In this document: one piece after another, positions 14,598-26,483 of the stretch
How positions within the stretch are numbered: position 1 is the first letter of the stretch
Layout: each line of letters begins with the position of its first letter
From: a virus
Direction: 5' to 3' (one strand)
DNA length: 27,694 nucleotides
IMG/VR virus record: IMGVR_UViG_3300040801_004796
Coordinates: 1-27,694 of that record
Made by a program: the position numbers and the translations under genes
The notes under the pieces: model-generated
The model's database searches: none
The model's input: the letters and a program-made list of their open reading frames with translations, nothing else
What the model was told of the DNA's origin: nothing

Positions 14598-14625
14598 ATT
14601 ACATACAATTGTATAGAAATGCAAA
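14594..14625 (-). promoter_or_regulatory. Early leftward promoter
   Basis: Minus strand TTTG (14622-14625) and, 20 bases on, TAATATTG (14594-14601), one mismatch from the Bacteroidetes -7 consensus TAnnTTTG. The palindrome ATACAATTGTAT (14603-14614) lies between the two boxes, so repressor binding there would block it. Confidence 0.6.
14603..14614. promoter_or_regulatory. Repressor operator, perfect palindrome ATACAATTGTAT
   Basis: A perfect 12-base palindrome between the divergent Cro-like gene and repressor. Related sites are at 6657, 18234, 18254, 26446 and 26470 (start positions). Its position inside the early promoter spacer and its recurrence before other phage genes make it the best candidate for the immunity repressor site. 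Confidence 0.6.
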
Positions 14626-14674: not shown

Positions 14675-15100
14675 ATGAAAACTGTTGTAAAAAGAATACG
14701 CGCTATTGCTAGAGATGTTGGTATTGGCGAGGGCAATTTTGAGAAATCCCTGAATATTTCAAGAGGCTATCTTAACATAACCGACAAGCGCAATGGAGAC
14801 CCAGGGCTTTCGGTAGTTCAGAAGCTTGTTGAGGAATATCCGGAATACAGCCTTAAATGGATATTTACGGGCAAAGGCAGCATGAAGCTAGAAAAGCACG
14901 GCGTTGTTGAAGAACCAGAACCAAATTATGCTTCTGGAGATTCCATAGAGCATCAAATCATAAAATTAATAAAAGGTGTCATACATGATGATGTAAGCCC
15001 AAAACTAGAAACCTTGTCTCGATCTGTTGATGATTTAATGAATAAAGAAGAGGCTCTTAAAAGGGATGTTATAAAGTTAAAAGAGCTGAATAAAAGTTAG
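14675..15100 (+). CDS. Phage repressor-like HTH protein
   Basis: A 141-aa protein divergent from the early operon. Residues of about 5-60 are an XRE-like helix-turn-helix (RIRAIARDVGIGEGNFEKSL, LNITDKRNGDPGLSVVQKL), followed by SLKWIFTGKG, a sequence typical of Bacteroidetes phage repressors. Residues of about 85-140 are a coiled coil for oligomerisation (SPKLETLSRSVDDLMNKEE). There is no S24/LexA autoprotease domain, so RecA-driven self-cleavage is unlikely, and relief by an antirepressor or another partner is probable. The nearest palindrome is at 14603. The ATG at 14675 matches the expected N-terminus. Confidence 0.8.
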   Translation: MKTVVKRIRAIARDVGIGEGNFEKSLNISRGYLNITDKRNGDPGLSVVQKLVEEYPEYSLKWIFTGKGSMKLEKHGVVEEPEPNYASGDSIEHQIIKLIKGVIHDDVSPKLETLSRSVDDLMNKEEALKRDVIKLKELNKS

Positions 15101-16766: not shown

Positions 16767-16798
16767 AAAAAGCCCACATAATTGTGGGCTCTTTTTTT
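16765..16798. terminator. Bidirectional terminator at the end of cassette 1
   Basis: AGCCCACA (16771-16778) and TGTGGGCT (16783-16790) with TAAT loop, flanked by A and T runs on both sides. It ends the transcript of the 83-aa gene (stop at 16797). Confidence 0.85.
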
Positions 16799-17048
16799 AG
16801 AAAGTGTTTACACCGTGCAGCTCTGGGTCTAGGTACATGTCTATCTTTAATAGGCAGTTGTACATTAGCTTAAATGTATAGAAGAGCGCATGTGCTTCTT
16901 CTGGTTTGCCAATAAACTGGTCACTTAACAAGGCATTGCTGTAACAGTGCATTAAAAAATCCTTGCAGTTGGTAATCTCTAAAAGGTTGTGCAGTTCCCT
17001 TATCTCATCTAAGATAAGACGGTCTTTCTCTAAATTTTCTGAGTACAT
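16797..17048 (-). CDS. 83-aa protein of cassette 1
   Basis: A helical 83-aa protein of unknown family (NLEKDRLILDEIRELHNLLE, ending LDPELHGVNTF) that is 79/83 identical to the copy at 25364-25615. Two of the four differences are codons 2 and 3 (Tyr-Ser against Gln-Thr), exactly the codons that lie in RNA II. It has no signal peptide, membrane helix or catalytic motif. It is always the last gene before a terminator, behind its own TATATTTG box and the RNA II leader. The role is unknown. From its place beside antirepressors, it could be an effector or partner in the same switch. Confidence 0.7.
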   Translation of the reverse strand: MYSENLEKDRLILDEIRELHNLLEITNCKDFLMHCYSNALLSDQFIGKPEEAHALFYTFKLMYNCLLKIDMYLDPELHGVNTF

Positions 17049-17209
17049 AATCGAAAATATTTTATAAAGCGAAGCCCTGCTTTAGGTCTGTACTCACTTC
17101 ACGAGGAAGGATTACGCTAGTTTCCATCGCGTGAACCATAACAAGGCTTCTATCGTTAAAAAAGATAAATCTGAATTTATCTCGTGAAAATGAGTACGAG
17201 ACAAATATA
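17040..17209 (-). promoter_or_regulatory. RNA II leader, copy 1: covarying switch before the 83-aa gene
   Basis: The -7 box TATATTTG is at 17202-17209. The transcript should begin near 17197 with GTACTCATTTTCACGAG (17181-17197), then a hairpin GATAAAT/ATTTATC (17164-17181) followed by TTTTTT (17158-17163), so a roughly 41-base sRNA may end there. Downstream, CTCGTGAAGTGAGTAC (17090-17105) is complementary to the 5' segment, and GTACTCA recurs at 17040-17046 over the start codon of the 83-aa gene. Further stems: GAAGCCTTG (17142-17150) with CAGGGCTTC (17071-17079), and ACGC with GCGT around a loop with GGAAAC (17109-17137). A 25-codon leader ORF lies at 17062-17139. Copy 2 keeps every pairing with different bases. 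Confidence 0.75.
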
Positions 17210-17297: not shown

Positions 17298-17837
17298 TTA
17301 ATTATCCCAAAACCCAGGTTCTTTTACAAACTCCTTATCTTGGGTATTAAGTTTTTTAGAAATGTTTTTTCGTTTAAGCTCTAGTTTTTTTAATTTTTTG
17401 TAGGTCTCTTGGTTTTCTTTCAATTCTTCTTTTAAGTAATGAATTTCTGTATCAACCTGGTTTCTTTCAAGCAACAATTCTTTCCTATTAGTTATGACGC
17501 CGTGAAAATGATTATACAATAACCTGTAGCAGGTTCTTTTATACTCTATTAATTCTTGACTTTCAGAATTTATTGAAAAAATCCAGCCATATATAAATTC
17601 TTCTGGAATACAGGTTACGTTTCGTATCTGAGATTTACCGTTTTTAGACACCTGCATAGGCTGTATAGCCAATGCAGGTCCTAAAATTGGGTCGTTTTTA
17701 GCATTTTTAAAAGACCTGGTATATTCAATATTTAATGCCTCACAAATTGGCTTTAACGCTATCCAGTAACTACCATCAACATTAAGAAATATAATGTTCT
17801 TGCCGTTAAACTCTAGAAATTTTTGATGTGTTTTCAT
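17298..17837 (-). CDS. Antirepressor-like protein with P22_AR_N domain
   Basis: A 179-aa protein. Residues of about 1-115 match a P22-type antirepressor N-terminal domain: FLEFNGKNIIFLNVDGSYWI, ALKPICEALNIEYTRSFKN, and YKRTCYRLLYNHFHG. The C-terminus (about 120-170) is a coiled coil ending SKKLNTQDKEF, similar to the end of the KilA-N protein at 25785-26339 (STKQLNALDKEI). In P22 and relatives, Ant binds and inactivates repressors. Here it probably does so for the repressor at 14675. It lies 38 bases after the short KilA-N gene in one transcript led by RNA I copy A. Confidence 0.8.
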   Translation of the reverse strand: MKTHQKFLEFNGKNIIFLNVDGSYWIALKPICEALNIEYTRSFKNAKNDPILGPALAIQPMQVSKNGKSQIRNVTCIPEEFIYGWIFSINSESQELIEYKRTCYRLLYNHFHGVITNRKELLLERNQVDTEIHYLKEELKENQETYKKLKKLELKRKNISKKLNTQDKEFVKEPGFWDN

Positions 17838-17875: not shown

Positions 17876-18121
17876 TTAGGTTAATTCAAGTTTAGAAATT
17901 AGCCCTTTTGTTTCTATAATTTTTGAAGCTGAATTTACTCCATTTGGAGGAAATTCAAGAGCATTATTAAATGCTTTTGCATGGTCTGTTTTTAAAAAAT
18001 GGTCTATTCTTTTATTAAACAACTTTGCCATTTCTGTGGCATTAACCATTACATTATCATCTGTAGGATTTAAAAGAAAATGGATTTGAGTGTCTTGGTA
18101 AATAAATTCTAATGTTTTCAT
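17876..18121 (-). CDS. Short KilA-N domain protein (truncated)
   Basis: An 81-aa protein whose first 43 residues are 34/43 identical to the KilA-N protein at 25785-26339, including VMVNATEMAKLFNKR, the typical KilA-N DNA-binding N-terminus. It then stops after a divergent tail (NSASKIIETKGLISKLELT), so the second half of the domain (HRKLALKFAAWLDVNF in the other copy) is missing. Either it is a functional short form or a frameshifted and decayed gene. It is first in a transcript with the antirepressor and is led by RNA I copy A. Confidence 0.65.
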   Translation of the reverse strand: MKTLEFIYQDTQIHFLLNPTDDNVMVNATEMAKLFNKRIDHFLKTDHAKAFNNALEFPPNGVNSASKIIETKGLISKLELT

Positions 18122-18137
18122 ACTATCATAAAATGCG

Positions 18138-18222
18138 AAAACCCTCAGTAGTAGTCGTCGGTACTAAAGAGGGTTTTCTTCTTCTCAGGTAAAATATGTC
18201 TTGATATAGCGACGACTCTATA
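18138..18222 (-). promoter_or_regulatory. RNA I leader, copy A: two hairpins with kissing loops
   Basis: Minus strand 5' hairpin: TATAG (18218-18222), loop AGTCGTCG (18210-18217), CTATA (18205-18209). 3' hairpin: AAAACCCTC (18169-18177) and GAGGGTTTT (18138-18146) with inner stem AGTA/TACT and 8-base apical loop CCGACGAC (18154-18161). GTCGTCG in the first loop and CGACGAC in the second are complementary over 7 bases. The 3' hairpin is terminator-like and ends 16 bases before the KilA-N ATG. Copy B at 26359-26436 has the same layout with a different, still matching, pair of loops. Confidence 0.78.
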
Positions 18223-18225
18223 AGG

Positions 18226-18267
18226 CAAATATAATACAATAGTATAGATAACCAAACAATTGTATAG
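18226..18267 (-). promoter_or_regulatory. Promoter of KilA-N transcript A with two operators
   Basis: TTTG (18253-18256), exactly 19 bases, then TATATTTG (18226-18233): a full match to the Bacteroidetes consensus. Two operator-like palindromes cover it: CTATACTATTGTAT (18234-18247) in the spacer and CTATACAATTGTTT (18254-18267) over the TTTG box. Transcription should start near 18220, at the first hairpin of RNA I. Confidence 0.72.
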
Positions 18268-25363: not shown

Positions 25364-25615
25364 TTAAAAGGTATTTACACCATGTAGCTCTGGGTCTAGG
25401 TACATGTCTATCTTTAATAGGCAGTTGTACATTAGCTTAAAGGTATAGAAGAGCGTATGTGCTTCTTCTGGTTTGCCAATAAACTGGTCACTTAACAAGG
25501 CATTGCTGTAGCAGTGCATTAAAAAATCCTTGCATCTGGTAATCTCTAAAAGGTTGTGCAGTTCCCTTATCTCATCTAAGATAAGACGGTCTTTCTCTAA
25601 ATTTTCTGTTTGCAT
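25364..25615 (-). CDS. 83-aa protein of cassette 2
   Basis: Nearly identical to the protein at 16797-17048 (79 of 83 residues), differing at residues 2, 3, 27 and 53. The reading frame continues upstream to an ATG at 25705, which would give 113 aa, but that extension crosses RNA II, is absent in copy 1 (where the frame is closed by a stop), and is rejected. The start at 25615 puts GCAAACA over codons 1-3, pairing with TGTTTGC in the leader. Function unknown, as for copy 1. Confidence 0.72.
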   Translation of the reverse strand: MQTENLEKDRLILDEIRELHNLLEITRCKDFLMHCYSNALLSDQFIGKPEEAHTLFYTFKLMYNCLLKIDMYLDPELHGVNTF

Positions 25616-25775
25616 AACTCGAAAATATTTTAAATACGAAGCCTCACTTAGGTCTGCAAACACTTTCGCGAGAAAGGAGTACCCTTGTTTCCTTGGGTGG
25701 ACCATATGAGACTTCTATCGTTAAAAAAGATAAATCTGAATTTATCTCGCCGAAAATGTTTGCGAGACAAATATA
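25607..25775 (-). promoter_or_regulatory. RNA II leader, copy 2: covarying switch before the 83-aa gene
   Basis: The -7 box TATATTTG is at 25768-25775. The 5' segment GCAAACATTTTCGGCGAG (25746-25763) is followed by the conserved hairpin GATAAAT/ATTTATC (25729-25746) and TTTTTT (25723-25728). The complement CTCGCGAAAGTGTTTGC is at 25656-25672, and GCAAACA recurs over the start codon (25607-25613). Stems: GAAGTCTCA (25707-25715) with TGAGGCTTC (25638-25646), and ACCC with GGGT around a GGAAAC loop (25676-25703). Compared with copy 1, the three specificity segments and both stems differ by compensating changes, while the hairpin and loops are unchanged. Confidence 0.75.
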
Positions 25776-25784
25776 GTAAAAAAA

Positions 25785-26339
25785 TTAAACACCTTTAAAA
25801 AGGTCTAATTGGTTGCTAATAATTTCTTTATCTAAGGCATTGAGTTGTTTTGTAGAAGATGTTTGTTGTTTTTTTAGTTCTTGTATCTTTTTATACGCTT
25901 TGGTTTGGCTTAGTTCTTCTTCTAGTTTTTCAATCTCAATTTGTGTTGCAGTTTTTTCTTTTAGTACTTGGGTGCGTTTGTTGTAGTTGTCAAATAAAAT
26001 AGAATCAATAGTGTAAATAATCCATAAATCAAAATTTACATCAAGCCAAGCAGCAAATTTTAAAGCTAACTTTCTATGAAAATAAGTTGCTTTATTTGTT
26101 GTTTTAACTACGTCTTTATATTTGGTTTGATGTGGCAGATGTGCCACATCAAAATTTGTATTTTCAGATTTAATTAAAGCATCAATAAAAATCTTTGTGC
26201 CATCCAATCTTAAAAAATCTTTAGGTCGTTTATTGAAAATTTTTGCCATTTCTGTGGCATTAACCATAACATTTTTATCTAACGGATTAACCAAAAAATG
26301 TATTTCAGTCTCTTGGTAAATAAATTCTAATGTTTTCAT
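25785..26339 (-). CDS. KilA-N domain protein, full length (antirepressor-like)
   Basis: A 184-aa protein. Residues of about 1-115 are a KilA-N domain with the VMVNATEMAKIFNKRPKDFL N-terminus and the second half HRKLALKFAAWLDVNFDLWI. Residues of about 125-175 are a coiled coil (IEIEKLEEELSQTKAYKKIQ) ending STKQLNALDKEI, like that of the antirepressor at 17298-17837. KilA-N proteins in phages bind DNA and often act as antirepressors or regulators. It is led by RNA I copy B and its own promoter, and is followed by RNA II copy 2 and the 83-aa gene. Confidence 0.82.
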   Translation of the reverse strand: MKTLEFIYQETEIHFLVNPLDKNVMVNATEMAKIFNKRPKDFLRLDGTKIFIDALIKSENTNFDVAHLPHQTKYKDVVKTTNKATYFHRKLALKFAAWLDVNFDLWIIYTIDSILFDNYNKRTQVLKEKTATQIEIEKLEEELSQTKAYKKIQELKKQQTSSTKQLNALDKEIISNQLDLFKGV

Positions 26340-26358: not shown

Positions 26359-26436
26359 AAATCCCTTCAAAAGTGGTAACGGACACTTAAGAAGGGATTT
26401 ACTCCAATTCGTATTTTCTTATAGCCGTTACTCTAT
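26359..26436 (-). promoter_or_regulatory. RNA I leader, copy B: two hairpins with kissing loops
   Basis: 5' hairpin ATAG (26433-26436), loop AGTAACGG (26425-26432), CTAT (26421-26424). 3' hairpin: AAATCCCTTC (26391-26400) and GAAGGGATTT (26359-26368), inner stem AAGTG/CACTT, 8-base loop TCCGTTAC (26376-26383). GTAACGG and CCGTTAC in the two loops pair over 7 bases. TTTTCCTTTTTT follows the second stem, so it can act as an intrinsic terminator, 19 bases before the ATG at 26339. In both copies 22 bases lie between the outer arms. Confidence 0.78.
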
Positions 26437-26440
26437 GGTA

Positions 26441-26483
26441 CAAAACTATACAATTGTAACGATATAACCAAACAATTGTATGG
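26441..26483 (-). promoter_or_regulatory. Promoter of KilA-N transcript B with two operators
   Basis: TTTG (26469-26472), 20 bases, then TAGTTTTG (26441-26448). Operator-like sequences: TTACAATTGTATAG on the minus strand (26446-26459) and CCATACAATTGTTT (26470-26483). The stretch ATACAATTGTTTGGTTAT (26464-26481) is identical to the one at 18248-18265. Confidence 0.7.

Follow-up and report, generated by a model that had tools for sequence, protein, structure and literature searches.

Antirepressors decide when a prophage wakes, and to our knowledge their control by RNA is known mainly from P1, P7 and P22, phages of enteric bacteria. In P1 and P7, the c4 RNA follows an a1/a'/a2 logic, in which a 5' site and a site in the start region both match one antisense segment, and it is processed to a ~77-nt RNA by RNase P. 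c4 acts on the ant mRNA around the ribosome-binding site; it belongs to P1 and P7, and P22 controls ant with sar RNA (PMC12197685), so that the original prediction for the locus described here, which had P1/P22-type phages using c4, was right for P1 and not for P22. A 4-nt deviation in c4 and its target restricts cross-reactivity between P1 and P7 (PMC5320573). The related motif c4-a1b1 is listed for gamma-proteobacterial phages (PMC2864571).

The whole stretch of DNA analysed here (27,694 nt from a Bacteroidota phage; the window) carries two leaders upstream of antirepressor genes, copy 1 (18233-18122) and copy 2 (26448-26340), both on the minus strand. Each consists of a 5' hairpin, H1, followed by a terminator-like hairpin, H2, and the loops of the two hairpins are complementary over 7 bp. 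The hairpins and the genes behind them are as follows.

18205..18222, minus strand: H1 of copy 1, stem TATAG/CTATA, loop AGTCGTCG at 18217-18210; the stem covaries in homologues
18137..18178, minus strand: terminator-like H2 of copy 1, arms GAAAACCCTC/GAGGGTTTTC with 22 nt between them, inner stem TAGTA/TACTA, loop CCGACGAC
17876..18121, minus strand: KilA-N gene of copy 1, 81 aa, truncated domain (Pfam KilA-N, 23.8 bits, positions 12-51 of 107)
17298..17837, minus strand: P22_AR_N antirepressor gene of copy 1, next after KilA-N (Pfam PF10547, E 6e-14; PHROG anti-repressor Ant)
26421..26436, minus strand: H1 of copy 2, stem ATAG/CTAT, loop AGTAACGG at 26432-26425
26359..26400, minus strand: terminator-like H2 of copy 2, arms AAATCCCTTC/GAAGGGATTT with 22 nt between them, inner stem AAGTG/CACTT, loop TCCGTTAC, U tract next
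25785..26339, minus strand: KilA-N gene of copy 2, 184 aa (Pfam KilA-N, E 3e-16)

The twin hairpins were thus present in both copies where they had been predicted, on the minus strand. The predicted loop pairing was reproduced as well, GTCGTCG/CGACGAC in copy 1 and GTAACGG/CCGTTAC in copy 2; four of the seven pairs (positions 3-6) differ between the copies, and all four changes are compensated. The claim of exactly 22 bases between the H2 arms held for both window copies and not as a general rule, since homologues vary (18 in contig L017). H1 lies at the predicted transcript start and H2 about 40 nt further on, 16-24 nt upstream of the antirepressor gene. In a simulation with the base composition of the window, 7 contiguous Watson-Crick pairs arose between two random 8-nt loops with a probability of 2.5e-4. 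No further occurrence of GTCGTCG or CGACGAC was found in the window, and a search of the window for other loop targets gave none for copy 1 and only single 7-mers, at chance level, for copy 2. The U tract after H2 was strong in copy 2 and in the homologous leaders L172, L017 and L173, and weak in copy 1 (UUUUCGCAUUUUAU); the copy 1 H2 may therefore terminate poorly. H2 was missed by a terminator scan because its loop is over 8 nt. The truncated KilA-N gene of copy 1 stands between the leader and the P22_AR_N gene, and the leader in L172 lies directly before a P22_AR_N gene.

Homologues were sought by querying viral contigs with KilA-N and antirepressor proteins. Four further phage contigs carried such a leader, L017 and L033 before KilA-N and L172 and L173 before P22_AR_N, and together with copies 1 and 2 they make up the six leaders that we call type A. 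Many related KilA-N genes had no leader, and no second type A leader was found in the L017 and L033 contigs. Among flavobacterial genomes, KilA-N had a match in 2 out of 300 and the antirepressor in 2 out of 399, and no additional leaders came from them. The placement relative to promoter and gene was the same across type A. The loops had been expected to covary among homologues rather than to be conserved without complementarity, and the homologous leaders indeed kept the complementarity with different letters: GTCTCAC/GTGAGAC in L017, CTACTAC/GTAGTAG in L033, GTTCCAG/CTGGAAC in L172 and CUAUCAC/GUGGUAG, with one G-U pair, in L173. No loop sequence is common to any two of the six leaders, few as they are. 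All loop-loop cells were paired (42/42), and when the loops were re-assigned among the leaders, this value was reached by only 1 of 720 assignments, the true one.

A MAFFT alignment of the type A leaders, made without structural input, brought the loops into register. In this alignment, where the 3' arms are misaligned and whose kissing pair a covariance model cannot represent, double-sided changes were found in 6 of the 7 loop pairs and in 3 of the 4 pairs of the H1 stem. The covariation score, computed jointly over H1, the kissing pair and the inner stem of H2, was 0.77, compared with 0.26 in shuffles; none of 500 shuffles reached 0.77, and the score dropped to ≤0.20 when the partner was slid by 1-3 columns. 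Copy 2 and L033 taken singly were not significant (p 0.25-0.28, shuffles over the whole 5' region), so that their support is the in-register covariation. Computed energies of the cognate loop-loop duplexes ranged from -6.5 to -9.9 kcal/mol, and nearly all non-cognate duplexes were weaker than -4 kcal/mol, the single exception being L033 with L173. These values fit the proposal that the different loops stop cross-talk between copies. We regard a conserved RNA architecture with a covarying loop-loop pair between promoter and antirepressor as well supported at the level of sequence.

The type A leaders were then compared with the described systems. As with c4 of P1/P7 and the Rfam families c4, c4-2 and c4-a1b1, they occupy the 5' leader of an operon for phage immunity or for an antirepressor, with the antirepressor as target gene; close to the 5' end of the transcript lies a segment that pairs with loops of a structured RNA further downstream, and specificity is set by a change of few bases. 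In 6 of 6 type A leaders, the H1 loop behind the promoter pairs with the H2 loop, as the a1 site of c4 does with its antisense. However, c4 has both a' and b', whereas the type A hairpin has one antisense loop, and c4 has an a2 target at the gene start, which type A lacks and a start-codon subclass in other Bacteroidota phages possesses (see below). The type A antisense loop gave no match in the start window of the gene beyond chance, and its downstream pairing had p values of 0.38-0.67. Neither c4 nor c4-2 of Rfam matched a type A leader, whether at the gathering threshold or at relaxed E-values, nor did any other Rfam family. Because the 5' partner is present but a start-codon target and an Rfam match are not, we liken type A to the 5' half of a c4 system without filing it as a c4 member. 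The comparison with c4 made in the original prediction therefore holds as an analogy, in that the antisense of related leaders pairs with both the 5' end and the start codon and c4-2-like RNAs adjoin the leaders, and not as an assignment of type A. With ColE1 RNA I/RNA II and R1 CopA/CopT, the type A leaders share loop-loop recognition over ~7 bp that sets specificity, pairing that is kept by compensatory change, and copies that diverge by compensated loop changes. The ColE1 and R1 loops, however, come from opposite strands of one locus, whereas the phage loops lie at different places in one transcript; no opposite-strand antisense arrangement was seen, both loops being on the minus strand downstream of one promoter. 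sar of P22 is likewise an RNA that controls an antirepressor, but it is a separate RNA pairing with ant mRNA, and no such transcript is evident in the window.

Pairing of this kind was also looked for more widely. Loose kissing-loop scans of whole loci gave hundreds of matches, with the reversed-sequence control equal or higher, and no single outlier was counted as evidence. Spurious loop pairs are common in AT-rich DNA, and therefore a test must rest on homologues and a fixed architecture. A first scan for the strict architecture, free of regions picked by eye, gave 9 matches in 171 regions, compared with about 0.8 per shuffled set. In a systematic test, 180 non-redundant upstream regions yielded 43 with a terminator-like hairpin, and each was compared with 200 dinucleotide shuffles. 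Pairing between 5' leader and hairpin interior beat the shuffles at p<=0.005 in 12 of the 43 (0.2 expected), at p<=0.02 in 19 (0.9 expected) and at p<=0.05 in 23 (2.1 expected), counts that lean upward since some regions were added after pairing had been noticed by eye. Type B leaders, from Bacteroides-like phages including LoVEphage, have 8-9-bp pairs; in five of them, 40 of 40 cells were paired, and 1 of 120 assignments was equally good. L181 and L184 carry type C leaders. In type D, the transcript 5' end pairs over ~20 nt with the hairpin interior. Nine type D leaders form the start-codon subclass (L069, L266, L040, L051, L075, L052, L089, which is the cultured Winogradskyella phage Peternella_1, L065 and L193); here the interior of the hairpin is, over 9-15 nt, antisense to the start codon of the antirepressor gene as well (p 0.003-0.010 each). 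In these nine, the 5' end thus imitates the start region, and a single antisense segment matches both, the same a1/a'/a2 logic as in P1/P7 c4.

Type A leaders precede KilA-N and P22_AR_N antirepressor genes, and one Bacteroides leader precedes Rha. A related RNA logic is seen in marine and gut Bacteroidota phages before unrelated antirepressor families, with the kissing loops as readable specificity tags. Among the papers searched, none described such leaders. It is possible, at somewhat less than an even chance, that they represent a broad, undescribed system of Bacteroidota phages, in which a terminator-like hairpin carries an antisense loop cognate to the transcript 5' end, immunity groups are set by the varying letters of the loops, and the several cassettes of one phage are insulated by loop sequence. 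If so, a few loop bases could suffice to predict the immunity groups of these little-studied phages.

Each kissing leader and antirepressor in the window is followed within its cassette by further elements, in the order promoter, 5' segment, short terminator-like hairpin, c4-2-like RNA and small ORF. The twin c4-2-like units lie at 17071-17209 and 25639-25775 on the minus strand, and the short terminator-like hairpin is identical in both. Their parts are as follows.

17181..17198, minus strand: 5' segment a1 (CGTACTCATTTTCACGAG) of the copy 1 c4-2-like unit
17071..17148, minus strand: copy 1 c4-2-like RNA, antisense a' CTCGTGAAGTGAGTACAG (Rfam c4-2, 27.0 bits, gathering 41, E 0.0007 on a 181-bp search)
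16797..17048, minus strand: copy 1 small ORF, its start ATGTACTCAG being the a2 target
25746..25766, minus strand: 5' segment a1 (CTCGCAAACATTTTCGGCGAG) of the copy 2 c4-2-like unit
25639..25712, minus strand: copy 2 c4-2-like RNA, antisense CTCGCGAAAGTGTTTGCAG (Rfam c4-2, 18.8 bits, weak; aligned with copy 1)
25364..25615, minus strand: copy 2 twin small ORF, its start ATGCAAACAG being the a2 target

Both units score below the c4-2 gathering score. By inspection, their antisense segments are complementary to the start region. Of the 252 bases of the twin small ORFs, 13 differ between the copies; three of these lie in codons 2-3 (p 0.008), precisely at the site paired by the antisense, and the antisense and the 5' segment have changed to match the start codon region, including two amino acids. 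The cognate duplexes were computed at -10.9 and -10.2 kcal/mol, compared with -3.3 and -2.3 kcal/mol for the non-cognate ones. The encoded twin proteins of 83 aa had no Pfam or PHROG match; by inspection they are identical at 79 of 83 residues and differ in codons 2-3. Two other contigs with a kissing leader also carry such an RNA: a c4-2 RNA above gathering in L184 (3412-3481, 42.8 bits) and a c4-2-like one below gathering in L033 (1861-1939, 30.9 bits).

Promoters were called with the flavobacterial/Bacteroidota consensus TTG-N17-21-TAnnTTTG; like the operator and terminator calls, they are consensus matches only. On the minus strand of the 27.7-kb window, the two leader promoters were the only matches, and in both leaders the predicted promoter ends a few bases upstream of H1.

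18226..18233, minus strand: -7 box TATATTTG of the copy 1 leader promoter, consensus match; upstream TTG at 18253-18255
26441..26448, minus strand: -7 box TAGTTTTG of the copy 2 leader promoter, consensus match; upstream TTG at 26469-26471
18256..18263, no strand: palindrome ACAATTGT, candidate operator at the copy 1 promoter, sequence match
26450..26479, no strand: two palindromes ACAATTGT (26450 and 26472), candidate operators at the copy 2 promoter, sequence match
14603..14614, no strand: ATACAATTGTAT in the control region of the putative repressor gene (14675-15100, plus strand), same palindrome as at the leader promoters

Since the palindrome of the repressor region recurs at both leader promoters, the phage repressor likely represses the leaders through this shared site.

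We propose that each leader is a copy-specific RNA switch that holds the phage antirepressor low, a c4-like control reduced to one kissing pair as specificity tag, and we give this reading an even chance of being correct. Once the flanking palindromes are free of repressor, on prophage induction or in the course of an infection, the leader would be transcribed, H1 would form, and its loop would kiss that of H2. The contact would stabilise H2 as an attenuator, most transcripts would stop before the antirepressor gene, and expression would be lowered. Leader RNA of the same copy, for example from a resident prophage, could make the same contact in trans, and a sister copy with other loops could not, so that loop identity would insulate the copies. 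The switch would work like P1/P7 c4 with its 5' a1 site, without the start-codon target. The original prediction let H1 act either in cis or as a separate short RNA; action in cis is no less likely, because H1 lies at the transcript 5' end and its stem by itself is barely stable (computed, 0 to -1.4 kcal/mol). The weak stem and the compacting hairpins in the linkers favour cis, and the tag-like divergence of the loops favours trans. If cis pairing already occupies the loops, RNA exchange or processing would be needed for action in trans.

The tag-like loops could also belong to a c4-type immunity RNA acting in trans, with which a lysogen, through a short RNA carrying H1 or H2, would silence the antirepressor of a superinfecting phage that shares its loops; kissing would then be mainly intermolecular. 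Like immunity tags, the loops vary from copy to copy and from phage to phage, the 4-nt deviation sufficient in P1/P7 c4 (PMC5320573) is the number differing between the window copies, and the twin c4-2-like units changed a1, a' and start codon together. We nevertheless hold this to be unlikely: both partners lie in one transcript, which gives cis pairing a large concentration advantage, the H1 stem is weak, and the repressor-like palindromes suggest that the leader promoters are silent in a lysogen, unlike those of a constitutive immunity RNA. The same weakness of H1, too great for it to act alone, would suit a fold that works purely in cis, stabilising the mRNA 5' end or tuning translation, with loop differences as neutral drift kept paired by compensation. 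A middle hairpin in 4 of 6 type A linkers (GAATT/AATTC in L172, GGTTT/AAACC in L173, TGATTA/TAATCA in L017 and GGTAAA/TTTACC in L033) draws H1 and H2 closer, as such a fold would have it. Yet the H1 stem ATAG/CTAT is identical in copy 1, copy 2 and L172 while the loop heptamers differ at about 4 of 7 positions, and leaders of the start-codon subclass have a regulatory target, which makes this explanation quite improbable. In DNA, the two heptamers form an inverted repeat with palindromic operator candidates nearby, but to read them as, for example, an operator pair is very improbable, since their letters differ per copy whereas the nearby palindrome is common to both, and since the arms sit in loops of covarying stems with a register and spacing that fit RNA hairpins. 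Chance complementarity, which the many spurious pairs from loose scans of AT-rich loci might suggest, is ruled out by homologues with different, still complementary loops, in line with the strict-architecture scan and the permutation and slide tests. A lock-and-key design with different letters before antirepressor genes of unrelated phages instead points to copy-specific RNA control of the exit from dormancy, as in the proposed switch, and is simple to test, for example by loop swaps.

Two minor elements were seen in the wider set of leaders. In L084 (~2470-2610) and L075 (~2420-2540), a tRNA-like element, called by neither ARAGORN nor Rfam, lies between the kissing leader and a Rha-type gene; it has a T-arm GGTTCGATTCC and an acceptor-like stem AGTAGG/CCTACT, followed by covarying pseudoknot-like pairings. 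In the type D leaders L266, L040, L051 and L264, a small hairpin with the conserved loop TTAATG is located inside the terminator-like hairpin.
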